DNA of 64,000 nucleotides from Butyrivibrio sp. Su6 (GTDB taxonomy: Bacteria; Bacillota; Clostridia; Lachnospirales; Lachnospiraceae): assembly GCF_900108105.1 (NCBI RefSeq), contig NZ_FNUR01000001.1, positions 372,001 to 436,000 of the forward strand, read 5' to 3'. Of the stretch, positions 4,585 through 46,851 are shown piece after piece (within the stretch, counting starts at the first letter, position 1; every line of letters starts with the position of its first letter). The translations under genes and the position numbers were made by a program. The notes below the pieces were generated by a model that saw nothing but the letters and a program-made list of their open reading frames with translations, was not told the origin of the DNA and searched no databases.

Positions 4585-4727
4585 AAAAGAATGTGAAAAT
4601 ATAAAATCACACTCGTTGTTCTTTGGGTTCAGATTATCACCTACTTTATAGCTAACCAATTAAATTTGTATTAAATTTTGTACATTCTGCAATATTGTTT
4701 CAAGTAATATCAAAAAACATGAAAGTC

Positions 4728-6626
4728 TCATTCAATCCATTCAGCATAAGCTTTTTCATATTCTTCCAGATTCATAGATTTTTCGTGCTTCTTATAGTAT
4801 TTATAGCGCTGTCTTGCCATTCCATAGGAAGAATACTCGCCTTCAAACTCATTTAGCTTTGACATGATATATCCATCACCATTCATAATAGAGAACGGAA
4901 CCACAATAGCATTACTGATGATGATATTTTCAGCCTCTGCAAACTCAGTAAATCTCCTGTCATTATCGTCAGTAATAGAAGAAGCAAGATCAATCTGCTC
5001 CCGCCATTTCTTATGTATCTTTTTCATCTCTGAATTATCTGAAAGCTGCCAGAATGTGTAGTCTCCATCATCTTCAAAGGGCTCTGTCCAGGTTTGAGGA
5101 TCCTCATAATCCGCGCCCCAGCGGCATTTCATAAAGGCATATTTACCTGACATGCGAACTGAGAGTAAAAACCCCATATCGCTCCCGGCGGTTACTATAA
5201 CATCGATAAAATCCTTACCCAAAGTCGATTCTATCTGTTCCTCCATCATATATGCTTCCTGCTTCCACCCTTCTGTTGAAGGATTATATGGCATAAGCAT
5301 TTTTATTGGAAAAGTCACCCCTTTTGGCGTAAGTTCAAGCCTCGCAAGATCTCTGTAGATTCTTGCTTTTTTGGAGTCAAAAGAGTCATTTCCGGCGTGA
5401 TACGCAAGTTTCCCATAAGATGTATAATCTTTCCCGTTAAATGAATTAGAGCCTTTAGGAGTGATCGTGTTATTTATAAGAATTTCCGGATCGTATGGTT
5501 CATAGAGCTTTAAAATACTTACCCTGTCTATTGATGCCATGATAGCTTTCCTAAAGCTTAAGTTTTCTACAGCTTTTTTCCAGTTATCAGGTTCATATCT
5601 TTTATCAAATAATGGTTCAAAATTAAAGGAATAAAAATATGAAAAAGAGCTATCTGGTCTTGATCTGTGAATATTCTCTGCATATTCAGTTTTGCTCATA
5701 TACTCATCAAGATGATCAGGACTTATGATTGCCTTATCAACAGAGCCATTCATATATTGCTCTGGCCCAATTAACAGAGCATCAGCATCATAATAATTTT
5801 CAATTCTGTCAAGATAGACGTTTTTCTTATCCCAATAGGTGGGATTTTTTACAAATATCTGCTTTTCAAGTGGTTTAAAATAATGCAGTATATAAGCACC
5901 GTTATATAGCATGAACTCATTGTCTGTAGCAAAAACACTTCCAATCTCATTAAGGTACTTTCGGCAGATTGGGAGATACGTTGTATAAGATAAAACGCTG
6001 GTAAAAAAGGGACATGGTTTTTCTAAGATGTATTTCAAAGTCTTATCATCTTCTGCCACAACGCCAATATCAGAAGGGATTGTCTTTTCCGGTATTTCCT
6101 CAAAATCATCGGGGTTTAAGACATACGATGTAAATTCATAGTATTTCTGGGCATTTAAGACCACAGCCCCTGTCGAATACATGTACTGACAATCTGTATC
6201 ATTGGCAGCATTATTGACATATTCTGCAGCACATACAAAGTCATCAGCTACTACATCTGCATAATAATTGCCGTTGTAGTCGACCCATTTTATTCCGTCC
6301 CTTAAATGAAAAGTCCACTCAGTAAAATCCTCATTTGACTCCCAGCTTTCAGCAAGTCCGGGGATAATATTGCCCTTTGTGTCATAGTCAACAAGAGCAT
6401 CTATAACATTGGCACAAACTGCTGTATCAACAGCAGAACTTGTCACCAGGTAGTTTAGATCAATAACCTCCGAGGAATATACAGTCTTAAAAACAACTGC
6501 ATCATTGTCGTAAGCATCTTCAAGGGTATGATTTTCAAGATCAGGAAGCTTACCATAGCAACCGGTCAAAAAAGTCATCACAAAACACAGGAATAGAAGT
6601 ATGCACTTTTGAGAAAAACGCCTCAT
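4728..6626 (-). CDS. Family 5 extracellular solute-binding lipoprotein (oligopeptide type)
   Basis: A 632-residue binding lipoprotein of the OppA/DppA class (SBP_bac_5). The signal peptide ends in a lipobox, LTGC (Cys at residue 23), so it is anchored in the outer leaflet of the membrane. The mature part shows the family's layout, including a motif region around LAESWESNEDFTEWTFHLRDGIKWVDYNG and an ADYEDPQTWTEPF segment near the C-terminus. No permease or ATPase genes are next to it. Instead its ATG overlaps the stop codon of the diguanylate cyclase upstream by 4 bp (ATGA), so the two are translationally coupled. That suggests a role in sensing rather than, or besides, uptake. The ligand is unknown; a short peptide is the family default. 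Confidence 0.9.
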   Translation of the reverse strand: MRRFSQKCILLFLCFVMTFLTGCYGKLPDLENHTLEDAYDNDAVVFKTVYSSEVIDLNYLVTSSAVDTAVCANVIDALVDYDTKGNIIPGLAESWESNEDFTEWTFHLRDGIKWVDYNGNYYADVVADDFVCAAEYVNNAANDTDCQYMYSTGAVVLNAQKYYEFTSYVLNPDDFEEIPEKTIPSDIGVVAEDDKTLKYILEKPCPFFTSVLSYTTYLPICRKYLNEIGSVFATDNEFMLYNGAYILHYFKPLEKQIFVKNPTYWDKKNVYLDRIENYYDADALLIGPEQYMNGSVDKAIISPDHLDEYMSKTEYAENIHRSRPDSSFSYFYSFNFEPLFDKRYEPDNWKKAVENLSFRKAIMASIDRVSILKLYEPYDPEILINNTITPKGSNSFNGKDYTSYGKLAYHAGNDSFDSKKARIYRDLARLELTPKGVTFPIKMLMPYNPSTEGWKQEAYMMEEQIESTLGKDFIDVIVTAGSDMGFLLSVRMSGKYAFMKCRWGADYEDPQTWTEPFEDDGDYTFWQLSDNSEMKKIHKKWREQIDLASSITDDNDRRFTEFAEAENIIISNAIVVPFSIMNGDGYIMSKLNEFEGEYSSYGMARQRYKYYKKHEKSMNLEEYEKAYAEWIE

Positions 6627-44796: not shown

Positions 44797-44910
44797 ATAG
44801 TTAAAAAGATATTAAATTATACTTAAAATCAGTTTTTTTCATCAAAAAACCTTTATAATTGATTGTAAAGATATTGACATAATATCAATCATATTATTAA
44901 GGAGGTAATG

Positions 44911-45136: not shown

Positions 45137-45180
45137 TAAAATTGTTGCCCAATCAAAAAATTCTCACTTTGTATATGCGT

Positions 45181-45385
45181 AAGTGATTGGCAGCGTCCGC
45201 CACCATTGACTGAACCTGAGGAAAACGCCTTAGTCTGCGAGCCGACGGTGAGGATGATGGGAACAGTAGATTCTATCTCACCGTCGGATTCAGTATTGTA
45301 GCGTTTTCCTCAGAACCCGTCAATGGCAAGCACCTTCGTTGTGGCTGGGTACAAGCGCCTCAGGCTCTGACTCCGAGAACAGTAG
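45181..45385 (+). repeat. Left inverted arm of the palindromic element
   Basis: It matches the reverse complement of 46520-46727 along its length, with perfect blocks of 30 nt (45199-45228 against 46679-46708), 32 nt (45238-45269 against 46638-46669), 19 nt (45295-45313 against 46592-46610) and 13 nt (45326-45338 against 46567-46579). The arm also folds on itself: CCATTGAC (45203) with GTCAATGG (45319), TGAGGAAAACGC (45217) with GCGTTTTCCTCA (45301), and CCGACGGTGAG (45242) with CTCACCGTCGG (45277). Confidence 0.9.
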
Positions 45386-45453
45386 ATGTTGATACTTCTA
45401 GAACTTATAATGCTTTATTCCCTCGGCTCCCAATGCTATGAGAGCGAGCTGCT

Positions 45454-45758
45454 GTTTTGGGCATATAGCTCGTTTTCAATAGCTCAGCCACCTGCAATTA
45501 AATCGGTTTTGGGCTCATAGCCTGATTTCAGGCTTGCAGCCACCCCTCATCATGGATTTCATCGCAGGCGATTGGGCATATACGGTAATAATCCGGCCGC
45601 AGCCACCTTTTTACGGGTGGCCCGAGGCTTGAAATCGGCCTATATGCCCAGTTCAACTTTCATGAGGGGTGGCTGGCAACGCAAAAAAGCTCTATAAGGA
45701 CAAATAAGTAAAAATCAGAGGTGGCTGGAAGCTTTCCAAAGCGCTATATGCCCAAAAC
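45454..45758. repeat. 305-bp co-centred imperfect palindrome
   Basis: Nested inverted blocks share one centre near 45606-45611. GTTTTGGGCATATAGC (45454-45469) mates with 45743-45758, a perfect 16 bp. CAGCCACC (45485) mates with GGTGGCTG (45720). CAGCCACCCCTCAT (45537-45550) mates with 45662-45675. TGGGCATATA (45573) mates with TATATGCCCA (45641), and GCCACC (45602) with GGTGGC (45616). Each half is built of three units that start with a GGGCATATA-like word and end in CAGCCACC, several with their own small hairpin such as AGCCTG-attt-CAGGCT at 45518-45533. Confidence 0.85.
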
Positions 45759-45803
45759 AATTTTCTATTCGTTGGCGATTCAAATTGGATAAACATGGAT
45801 TAG

Positions 45804-46120
45804 CTTGGATGTAGGATAAGAACGATAGATTTGAAACATTTATCCCACTTTATCCAAGCCTATTTTCTAAACTGTGGGATAAAACCTGAAATTCTATCGT
45901 AGTTATCCCACAATTTCGGCCTTCTGAACACTGCGATTGACCGAGTAGGATAAGTGTGAAAAAAACAATTGATTTATCCCACAATCCTCAGCCAGAGCCT
46001 TGAGAATTATGGGATAAAAAGCGCTAAAGTCAAGCTTTTATCCTACTCATGAGCAGATTCACTATCAGGATGGTTAAATCTATAGGATAAAAAACGTATT
46101 ACATAAACACTTATCCTACA
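45804..46120. repeat. Five tandem GGATAA-N20-TTATCC inverted pairs
   Basis: GGATAA starts at 45814, 45877, 45948, 46012 and 46085, and TTATCC at 45840, 45903, 45974, 46038 and 46111. The gap between half-sites is exactly 20 nt in all five, although the 20-nt sequences mostly differ. Flanking bases often extend the match (TGTGGGATAA with TTATCCCACA in the second). Spacing from one pair to the next alternates 31, 39, 32 and 41 nt. The first pair has an outer stem CTTGGAT/ATCCAAG (45804 and 45852). Confidence 0.9.
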
Positions 46121-46137
46121 TCTTCTCCTAGCTCTGG

Positions 46138-46153
46138 ATTGTCACAGTGAAAT
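46138..46153 (+). repeat. 16-bp direct repeat, copy 1
   Basis: ATTGTCACAGTGAAAT here and ATTGTCACAGTAAAAT at 46465-46480 differ at one base. The two copies bracket the GACCTA tandem module. Confidence 0.75.
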
Positions 46154-46157
46154 GGAT

Positions 46158-46184
46158 AAAGCGCTTAAATAATGCGCTTTTTTT
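46158..46184 (+). terminator. Terminator-like hairpin inside the palindromic element
   Basis: On the plus strand AAAGCGC, a 9-nt loop and GCGCTTT are followed by TTTT, giving a run of seven T residues. With no coding gene before it back to 45087, it suggests a plus-strand noncoding transcript ending here. Confidence 0.6.
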
Positions 46185-46235
46185 GTCTATGGATTTGGCA
46201 TCCGTTATTCAATATTCATTCCATAAAATCAAAAA

Positions 46236-46421
46236 CATGACCTAAGTAAAATAAATATACTGATTAGGTCATGAATTCTGTAATAACAAAGCAATATCAT
46301 GACAAAAATCATGACCTAGACAAATGAAAAATGCTGTTTAGGTCATGAATTCTGTAATAACAAGGCAATATCATGACAAAAAACATGACCTAAGCAAGTG
46401 AAAAATGCTAATTAGGTCATG
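46236..46421. repeat. Three 74-bp tandem units with GACCTA-N20-TAGGTC inverted pairs
   Basis: CATGACCTA begins at 46236, 46310 and 46384, an exact 74-nt period. Each is matched by TAGGTCATG, and GACCTA to TAGGTC is 20 nt apart in all three. Between units 1-2 and 2-3 a 37-nt linker beginning AATTCTGTAATAACAA is nearly identical. The 20-nt inner sequences differ more than the linkers. Confidence 0.9.
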
Positions 46422-46464
46422 TTTTTTGTAATAGCACGTTATCCGTGCAGGTTATAATAAATAA

Positions 46465-46480
46465 ATTGTCACAGTAAAAT
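46465..46480 (+). repeat. 16-bp direct repeat, copy 2
   Basis: Matches 46138-46153 in 15 of 16 positions and ends the GACCTA module. Confidence 0.75.
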
Positions 46481-46519
46481 TGAGAATATAGCCCTACACA
46501 TCCTTGAAAGTAGCCGCCC

Positions 46520-46727
46520 CTACTGTTCTCGGAATTGGATCCTGAGGCATCTTCCCCCAGCCACACCGAAGGTGCTTGCTATTGACGGGGGCTGAGGAAA
46601 ACGCTACAATGCTGGTTCCGACGGTGCATGAATCTAACTACTGTTCCCATCATCCTCACCGTCGGCTCGAAGACCAAAGCGTTTTCCTCAGGTTCAGTCA
46701 ATGGTGGCGTACGAGGCCAATTCATTT
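46520..46727 (-). repeat. Right inverted arm of the palindromic element
   Basis: Reverse-complement copy of 45181-45385 (see that entry for matching blocks). It ends in GGCCAATTCATTT, the counterpart of AAGTGATTGGC at the left outer edge. No target-site duplication is apparent outside the arms. Confidence 0.9.
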
Positions 46728-46736
46728 GCTTTTATA

Positions 46737-46783
46737 AAAAAGAGTATTTTGCAAAGAAATAATTGCATGCAAAATACTCTTTT
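46737..46783. terminator. Strong bidirectional terminator after the acyl-CoA ligase gene
   Basis: A perfect 16-bp stem (AAAAGAGTATTTTGCA and its complement) with a 15-nt loop has T-runs on both sides. It terminates the minus-strand ligase gene and insulates it from the palindromic element. Confidence 0.9.
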
Positions 46784-46851
46784 CTTAATCAGGTCTACAT
46801 ATTTATCAATAAAAGCAAAAAAAGTTTGATTATTCAATTCTATAAGTATGA

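Follow-up and report, generated by a model that had tools for sequence, protein, structure and literature searches.

The ORF-free palindromic region of the window (in our work, the whole 64,000-nucleotide stretch of Butyrivibrio sp. Su6 DNA that was analysed) is one copy of a dispersed mosaic repeat bounded by two inverted hairpins of ~187 nt, to which we give an even chance of being promoter or priming hairpins for single-stranded DNA (ssDNA), of the Frpo/sso class. As predicted from sequence and modelled folds, the minus strand of the ~187-nt unit lays out a near-consensus sigma-A promoter in its own fold. A search of the literature for such repeats in Butyrivibrio or Lachnospiraceae retrieved nothing.

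Two inverted arms delimit the palindrome. In agreement with the original prediction, which had placed here arms of about 200 bp with perfect blocks of up to 32 nt, positions 45186-45269 pair with 46638-46721 (84 nt, 93%) and positions 45279-45397 with 46508-46626 (119 nt, 82%), the longest perfect blocks being 32 nt (45238-45269 with 46638-46669) and 31 nt (45198-45228 with 46679-46709). The unit is present on the plus strand in the left arm (45198-45385; CGCCACC ... GAGAACAGTAG) and inverted, on the minus strand, in the right arm (46521-46709). That an arm is itself a long hairpin was likewise confirmed by folding the 187 nt of the left arm alone as DNA, which yielded -37.6 kcal/mol (z -4.5), a value equalled by none of 200 shuffles; larger pieces of the element gave z values of -8.7 and -8.3 against shuffles. 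Within the left unit, one copy of an 11-nt motif occupies the loop (GGGAACAGTAG, 45259-45269, plus strand) and a direct copy is found at the 3' end (GAGAACAGTAG, 45375-45385, plus strand), both being recognised by their sequence and by co-variation with each other. Outside the left arm lies the boundary motif TTGTATATGCGTAAGT (45169-45185, plus strand), which is common to 29 of the 56 arm ends in the genome, where TATATGCGTAAG is located just outside the arm and usually follows the T-tract of a terminator. The latter sequence, or a form with one mismatch, is also present without arms at G000:C13:88201-88215, at G000:C7:24264-24278 and around position 986 of L043, where GTGGCGTACGGAG is all that is kept beside the boundary motif; these armless sites are possibly remnants of lost elements.

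The interior of the window element consists, as had been proposed, of three unrelated palindrome families: an array of GGGCATATAG...GCCACC units in both orientations (45454-45758), which in the DNA examined is limited to these elements, an array of GGATAA hairpins (GTRGGATAA ... TTATCCYAC; 45785-46160), and three 74-nt units of the form ATGACCTAA ... TTAGGTCAT (46231-46452). Across the ~340 kb examined, inner motifs were counted inside versus outside the elements at 112 versus 0 and 33 versus 0, and the GGATAA hairpin at 27 versus 3. The phrase "nest of palindromic elements", offered earlier for this region, is right as a description. The claim that it is free of ORFs also held, with no ORF of at least 60 aa between positions 44797 and 46851 of the window and, inside the other complete copies of the repeat, none of at least 102 aa. 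Without ORFs, the window copy has no ORF cassettes between hairpins of the kind that characterise an integron attC array, and its inner repeats are inverted pairs belonging to degenerate families, in contrast to a CRISPR array, in which the direct repeats are identical and the unique spacers between them constant in length. Neither the window element nor the ~187-nt unit matched any Rfam family at the gathering score.

The region had been taken for a single element outside any named class, a view that was overturned when BLAST against its own genome returned 169 matches, corresponding to about 37 loci, at 19 of which both arms are present. Complete copies measure 665-1512 bp, the window copy being the longest. 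The copies lie between genes, as a rule at a distance of 100-250 bp from them, and the complete ones are mostly situated at gene 3' ends, 10 of the 19 between convergent genes. Their palindromic units alternate in orientation within intergenic DNA, as do those of BIMEs. Many contigs of the genome end in or near a copy, and the repeat explains the positions at which these contigs break.

Comparison with relatives, one of the checks proposed at the outset, revealed that the window site is empty in Butyrivibrio sp. AE2015 and in B. proteoclasticus P18. In the former, flanks that are 93-97% identical enclose 5 bp, as compared to ~1.69 kb in the source genome, placing the inserted DNA at 45137-46829 (ends accurate to within tens of bases); the predicted extent of 1.5 kb consequently holds for the palindrome and falls short of the inserted DNA as a whole. 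The same comparison modifies the claim that strong terminators fence the element on both sides: the left one is also present in the empty site and is therefore assigned to the neighbouring gene, while the terminator-like hairpin on the right (46738-46783, with perfect arms of 16 nt) is absent from the empty site and belongs to the inserted DNA. A further locus (L037) is likewise unoccupied in the two relatives, and the 12 loci checked in AE2015 comprise six that are empty, five that are apparently filled (meaning that the flanks are found beside units, mostly at contig ends) and one undecided. No clear target duplication was found at the empty sites, some of which in AE2015 carry other terminators or another palindrome; for example, L295, the AE2015 counterpart of L039, contains an unrelated palindrome of ~106 bp (GGCCCTCGGGGACGGGG ... 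CCCCGTCCCCGAGGGTC) where the source genome has an element. Other copies occupy the same site in P18 with their interior partly replaced or inverted, which indicates that the inner arrays are exchanged between copies. At the site shared by L047 and L026, one half of the P18 element corresponds, in inverted form, to the opposite half of the copy in the source genome, as though recombination had used the arms as handles. The repeat is mobile, or at least polymorphic, being present or absent between species. Since it is shared by independent assemblies (P18 and AE2015), and since the unit also occurs in the complete chromosome of Hungatella hathewayi, the repeat is not the assembly artefact that had been considered as a way in which the prediction might fail.

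A structure-aware search, which had also been recommended, was performed with a covariance model of the unit built from 13 arms, and it retrieved the unit from 29 of 79 Butyrivibrio genomes and, among 299 Lachnospiraceae genomes that were sampled, from 23. A scan with a sequence pattern added records from Oscillospiraceae and Ruminococcaceae, together with a few viral contigs. Covariation was assessed on 61 units of shared ancestry that are less than 90% identical, and nearly every pair of helix P3 occurs in at least two Watson-Crick types. Many of the units from outside Butyrivibrio had been picked by a pattern located outside P3 (their ends being set afterwards by the covariance model), and these were therefore not selected for P3 pairing. 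As a control, a tmRNA alignment from 30 genera of the same family was used, both strands of both alignments being folded alike. In helices common to both strands, 4.6% of the tmRNA cells were GT and 1.3% AC, as compared to 0.7% GT and 1.7% AC in the unit (Fisher p 2e-5), even though the unit is the more divergent of the two. Judged from these alignments, helix P3 is free in sequence and strictly Watson-Crick, and the hairpin is apparently kept at the DNA level.

This scarcity of wobble pairs bears on the earlier suggestion of a large structured RNA, considered here in the form that the minus strand of the unit is a non-coding RNA or part of the 3' UTR of transposase mRNAs and that the element with both arms is one large RNA. 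Compensatory changes as such would suit an RNA, as would the position of units after transposase stop codons and the strand bias of the alignment, in which the minus strand folds better (-43.6 versus -35.7) and AC cells outnumber GT cells (30 versus 13, p 0.014). On the other hand, wobbles are much less frequent than in the tmRNA control from this family, the unit has no Rfam match, and a transcript from its own minus-strand promoter, as described below, would start in the loop and would lack one strand of P3. We consider a structured RNA very unlikely; the arms are best accommodated by the alternative suggestion that had been made, namely a DNA site recognised as a hairpin, given both the wobble-poor covariation and the promoter layout within the hairpin.

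The promoter layout consists, on the minus strand of the unit, of TTGAC(A/G) in helix P2 and TAnnnT in the loop, both highly conserved, separated by a spacer of 17 nt in 54 of the 61 units, which is mostly formed by helix P3 and is variable in sequence. In the window, the left hairpin carries this layout on the minus strand (45295-45323; -35 TTGACG at 45323-45318, a 17-nt spacer and -10 TACAAT at 45300-45295) and the right hairpin on the plus strand (46582-46610; TTGACG, 17 nt, TACAAT). Column counts among the 61 units are T61 T61 G53 A59 for the first box and T57 A61 n n n T60 for the second, so that the conserved columns are those expected from the important positions of -35 and -10 boxes. 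A loose promoter rule was passed by 51 units and failed by 10. Under a strict rule, 41 of the 61 minus strands passed, all of them at one and the same column and none at any other, as compared to a single hit in all on the other strand and at most 10 hits at one column in column-shuffled alignments. Promoter-like hexamers are common by chance (4 in the same 2 kb, versus 5.1 expected in shuffles), and the case for a promoter rests on the fixed and conserved position of the boxes.

When the single minus strand is folded as DNA, the -35 box (paired 0.89) and the spacer (paired 0.88) are predicted to be double-stranded and the -10 box to be open, although both folding cut-offs were reached by only 35 of the 61 units. 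In this fold the boxes are rebuilt inside a stem-loop of one strand, as in Frpo and sso. The first base of the -10 box has a pairing value of 0.75 and the second base one of 0.18, from which it follows that the predicted duplex ends between positions -12 and -11. An open promoter complex has its upstream edge at this point, which is where melting by RNA polymerase begins.

In duplex DNA, the same boxes of the window element face outward from both arms, towards the terminator-like hairpins at its edges. As the duplex arm thus has, by its sequence, a good outward promoter, ssDNA need not be the working form, and the element might instead be an ordinary promoter island that produces, at gene ends, antisense RNA stopped by terminators, with the hairpin as a by-product. 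The outward TTGACG-17-TACAAT of each arm is in keeping with such an island, and so are the coincidence of the element boundaries with terminators and the prevalence of complete copies at gene 3' ends, more than half of them between convergent genes. A plain promoter, however, needs no complementary copy of its spacer across the loop, and yet divergent copies keep one, for which reason we hold this explanation to be quite unlikely.

The 11-nt motif of the loop co-varies with its direct copy at the 3' end of the unit (152 versus 44 expected, reached in 0 of 5000 shuffles that did not control for relatedness between units). Within a subfamily the loop motif is constant whatever the flank, so that the motif belongs to the unit itself and is no target sequence; a reading of the repeated motif as guide and target was rejected on the same grounds. 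Some arms (L010, the right arms of L033 and L036, and L056) lack exactly the segment between the direct copies of the loop motif and retain one copy, as precise excision or slippage between repeats of 8-11 bp would leave. The ssDNA-promoter reading leaves both the co-varying loop motif and the inner hairpin arrays unaccounted for.

Outside the repeat-rich Butyrivibrio genomes, the unit is mostly single, being found either by itself in an intergenic region or immediately after a transposase gene. In the latter case its 3' end lies about -11 to +25 nt from the transposase stop codon, and its orientation is against the gene. The statement that no transposase is in or beside the element is hence correct for the window locus and does not extend to the arm unit elsewhere, which directly follows transposases of four unrelated groups, IS6-like, IS30, IS3 and ISL3. 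Most cases, including that of Hungatella hathewayi, involve an IS6-like DDE protein with a zinc ribbon, which scores below the curated IS6 cut-off; the combination of IS30 and unit occurs as four near-identical copies in one genome and as one copy in P18. Within IS6-like and IS30 elements the unit occupies an interior position, some 95-300 bp away from the IS end. A collection of 72,556 plasmid records gave no match to two queries. In L135, a unit around 4591-4779 is situated 6 bp from a MobA/VirD2-like relaxase gene, which suggests a natural setting for an ssDNA promoter. In two genomes, repetitive frames (L136, 5140-5454, where they are lysine-rich; L255, 5327-5695) overlap units on their 3' side and are probably chance frames across further repeats.

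The main rival of the ssDNA promoter is a giant BIME- or MITE-like repeat in which the hairpin is bound or cleaved by a transposase or recombinase that acts in trans, its resemblance to a promoter being incidental. In favour of such an enzyme site, the hairpin is strictly Watson-Crick, its loop motif co-varies with the 3' direct copy, the shortened arms lack the part that excision or slippage would remove, the repeat varies in presence between relatives, and units adjoin transposases. Nevertheless, no tested enzyme tracks the repeat. The source genome has one Y1 protein of 166 aa and no longer, RAYT-like one, while proteins of RAYT length are found in relatives that lack the repeat; the unit-bearing IS30 element is absent from the source genome and from AE2015, and the IS6-like transposase from AE2015, P18 and G089. 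The empty sites, moreover, are without clear target duplication, and the fixed 17-nt spacer and the boxes would be left unexplained. We regard an enzyme site as possible though doubtful. Two specific origins were also considered. A RAYT/REPIN origin is unlikely, because no RAYT-length protein is encoded in the source genome and such proteins do not correlate with the repeat. Descent as a MITE from either IS30 or the IS6-like element, these being the two parents that were checked, was rejected: the IS ends differ, the unit is internal and no clear duplication is seen; in the source genome the IS30 element is absent, the sole copy of the IS6-like transposase has no adjoining unit, and AE2015 carries the repeat with neither IS.

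According to the ssDNA-promoter reading, the strand carrying the unit would become single-stranded in conjugation, rolling-circle or lagging-strand intermediates, upon which the single minus strand would fold into a ready-melted promoter. Host RNA polymerase would then start at the hairpin, and the resulting RNA would prime the complementary strand or be expressed early. An element with two arms would provide one correctly turned hairpin on each DNA strand, and its inner arrays would be swapped by homologous recombination between copies. Both the activity on ssDNA and the use made of the unit are what we infer from the analysis. An ssDNA promoter does not have to carry a gene, and this would account for a passenger devoid of ORFs behind transposases. 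A more specific version, which we think unlikely, is that the unit is a selfish mobile ssDNA promoter that has come to lie behind the transposase genes of at least four unrelated IS families and has spread across a family of gut bacteria. In this version the loop motif, matching the 3' boundary of the unit, would act as a code for cutting or joining, and the doubled head-to-head units of Butyrivibrio would ensure a start on either strand of an expanding hairpin island.

Most ssDNA promoters and priming sites known so far come from conjugative plasmids, rolling-circle plasmids and a few ICEs. If the ssDNA-promoter reading is true, abundant gut bacteria harbour a large family of them in their chromosomes and insertion sequences, which would show how priming or transcription might take place on insertion sequences and incoming DNA that are not yet double-stranded. 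Its signature (strict Watson-Crick covariation, a fixed 17-nt spacer and a -10 box in the loop) would allow a computable search that does not depend on sequence similarity.

Among known systems, MITEs resemble the repeat in being non-coding, in having inverted ends and in being present or absent between relatives, but no autonomous parent with the same ends and no clear target duplication were found for the repeat, and the unit is internal, not an IS end, in IS6-like and IS30 elements. BIMEs and REPINs with their RAYT share with it the intergenic mosaic of palindromes, the alternating orientation and the inverted doublets (PMC2817692, PMC3116915); they differ in size, the unit measuring 187 nt as compared to 20-40 bp for single REPs and the element reaching up to 1.7 kb, and the repeat further departs from them in combining several unrelated palindrome families in a genome where no RAYT-length protein was found. 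In the sso of Gram-positive rolling-circle plasmids and sso1 of ICEBs1, folded ssDNA is the promoter at which host RNA polymerase makes a primer (PMC4595007). The reading proposed for the unit has the same elements, namely a folded ssDNA promoter for which orientation matters and which has no gene of its own; most unit copies, unlike sso, have no adjoining replicon or conjugative genes (the unit 6 bp from a relaxase gene being one exception), and the likeness is drawn from the layout. In Frpo/ssi of the F plasmid, folded ssDNA acts as promoter for host RNA polymerase (PMC9849209, PMC11541004), the ssDNA promoters of F-like plasmids being credited in these two articles to Masai and Arai (1997). 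Unlike Frpo/ssi, the unit is chromosomal, multicopy and either IS-borne or head-to-head, with no known placement in a plasmid leading region or before early genes; what the two have in common, again in layout, is a non-coding DNA stem-loop that rebuilds the -35 and -10 boxes on one strand and is tied to mobile DNA.
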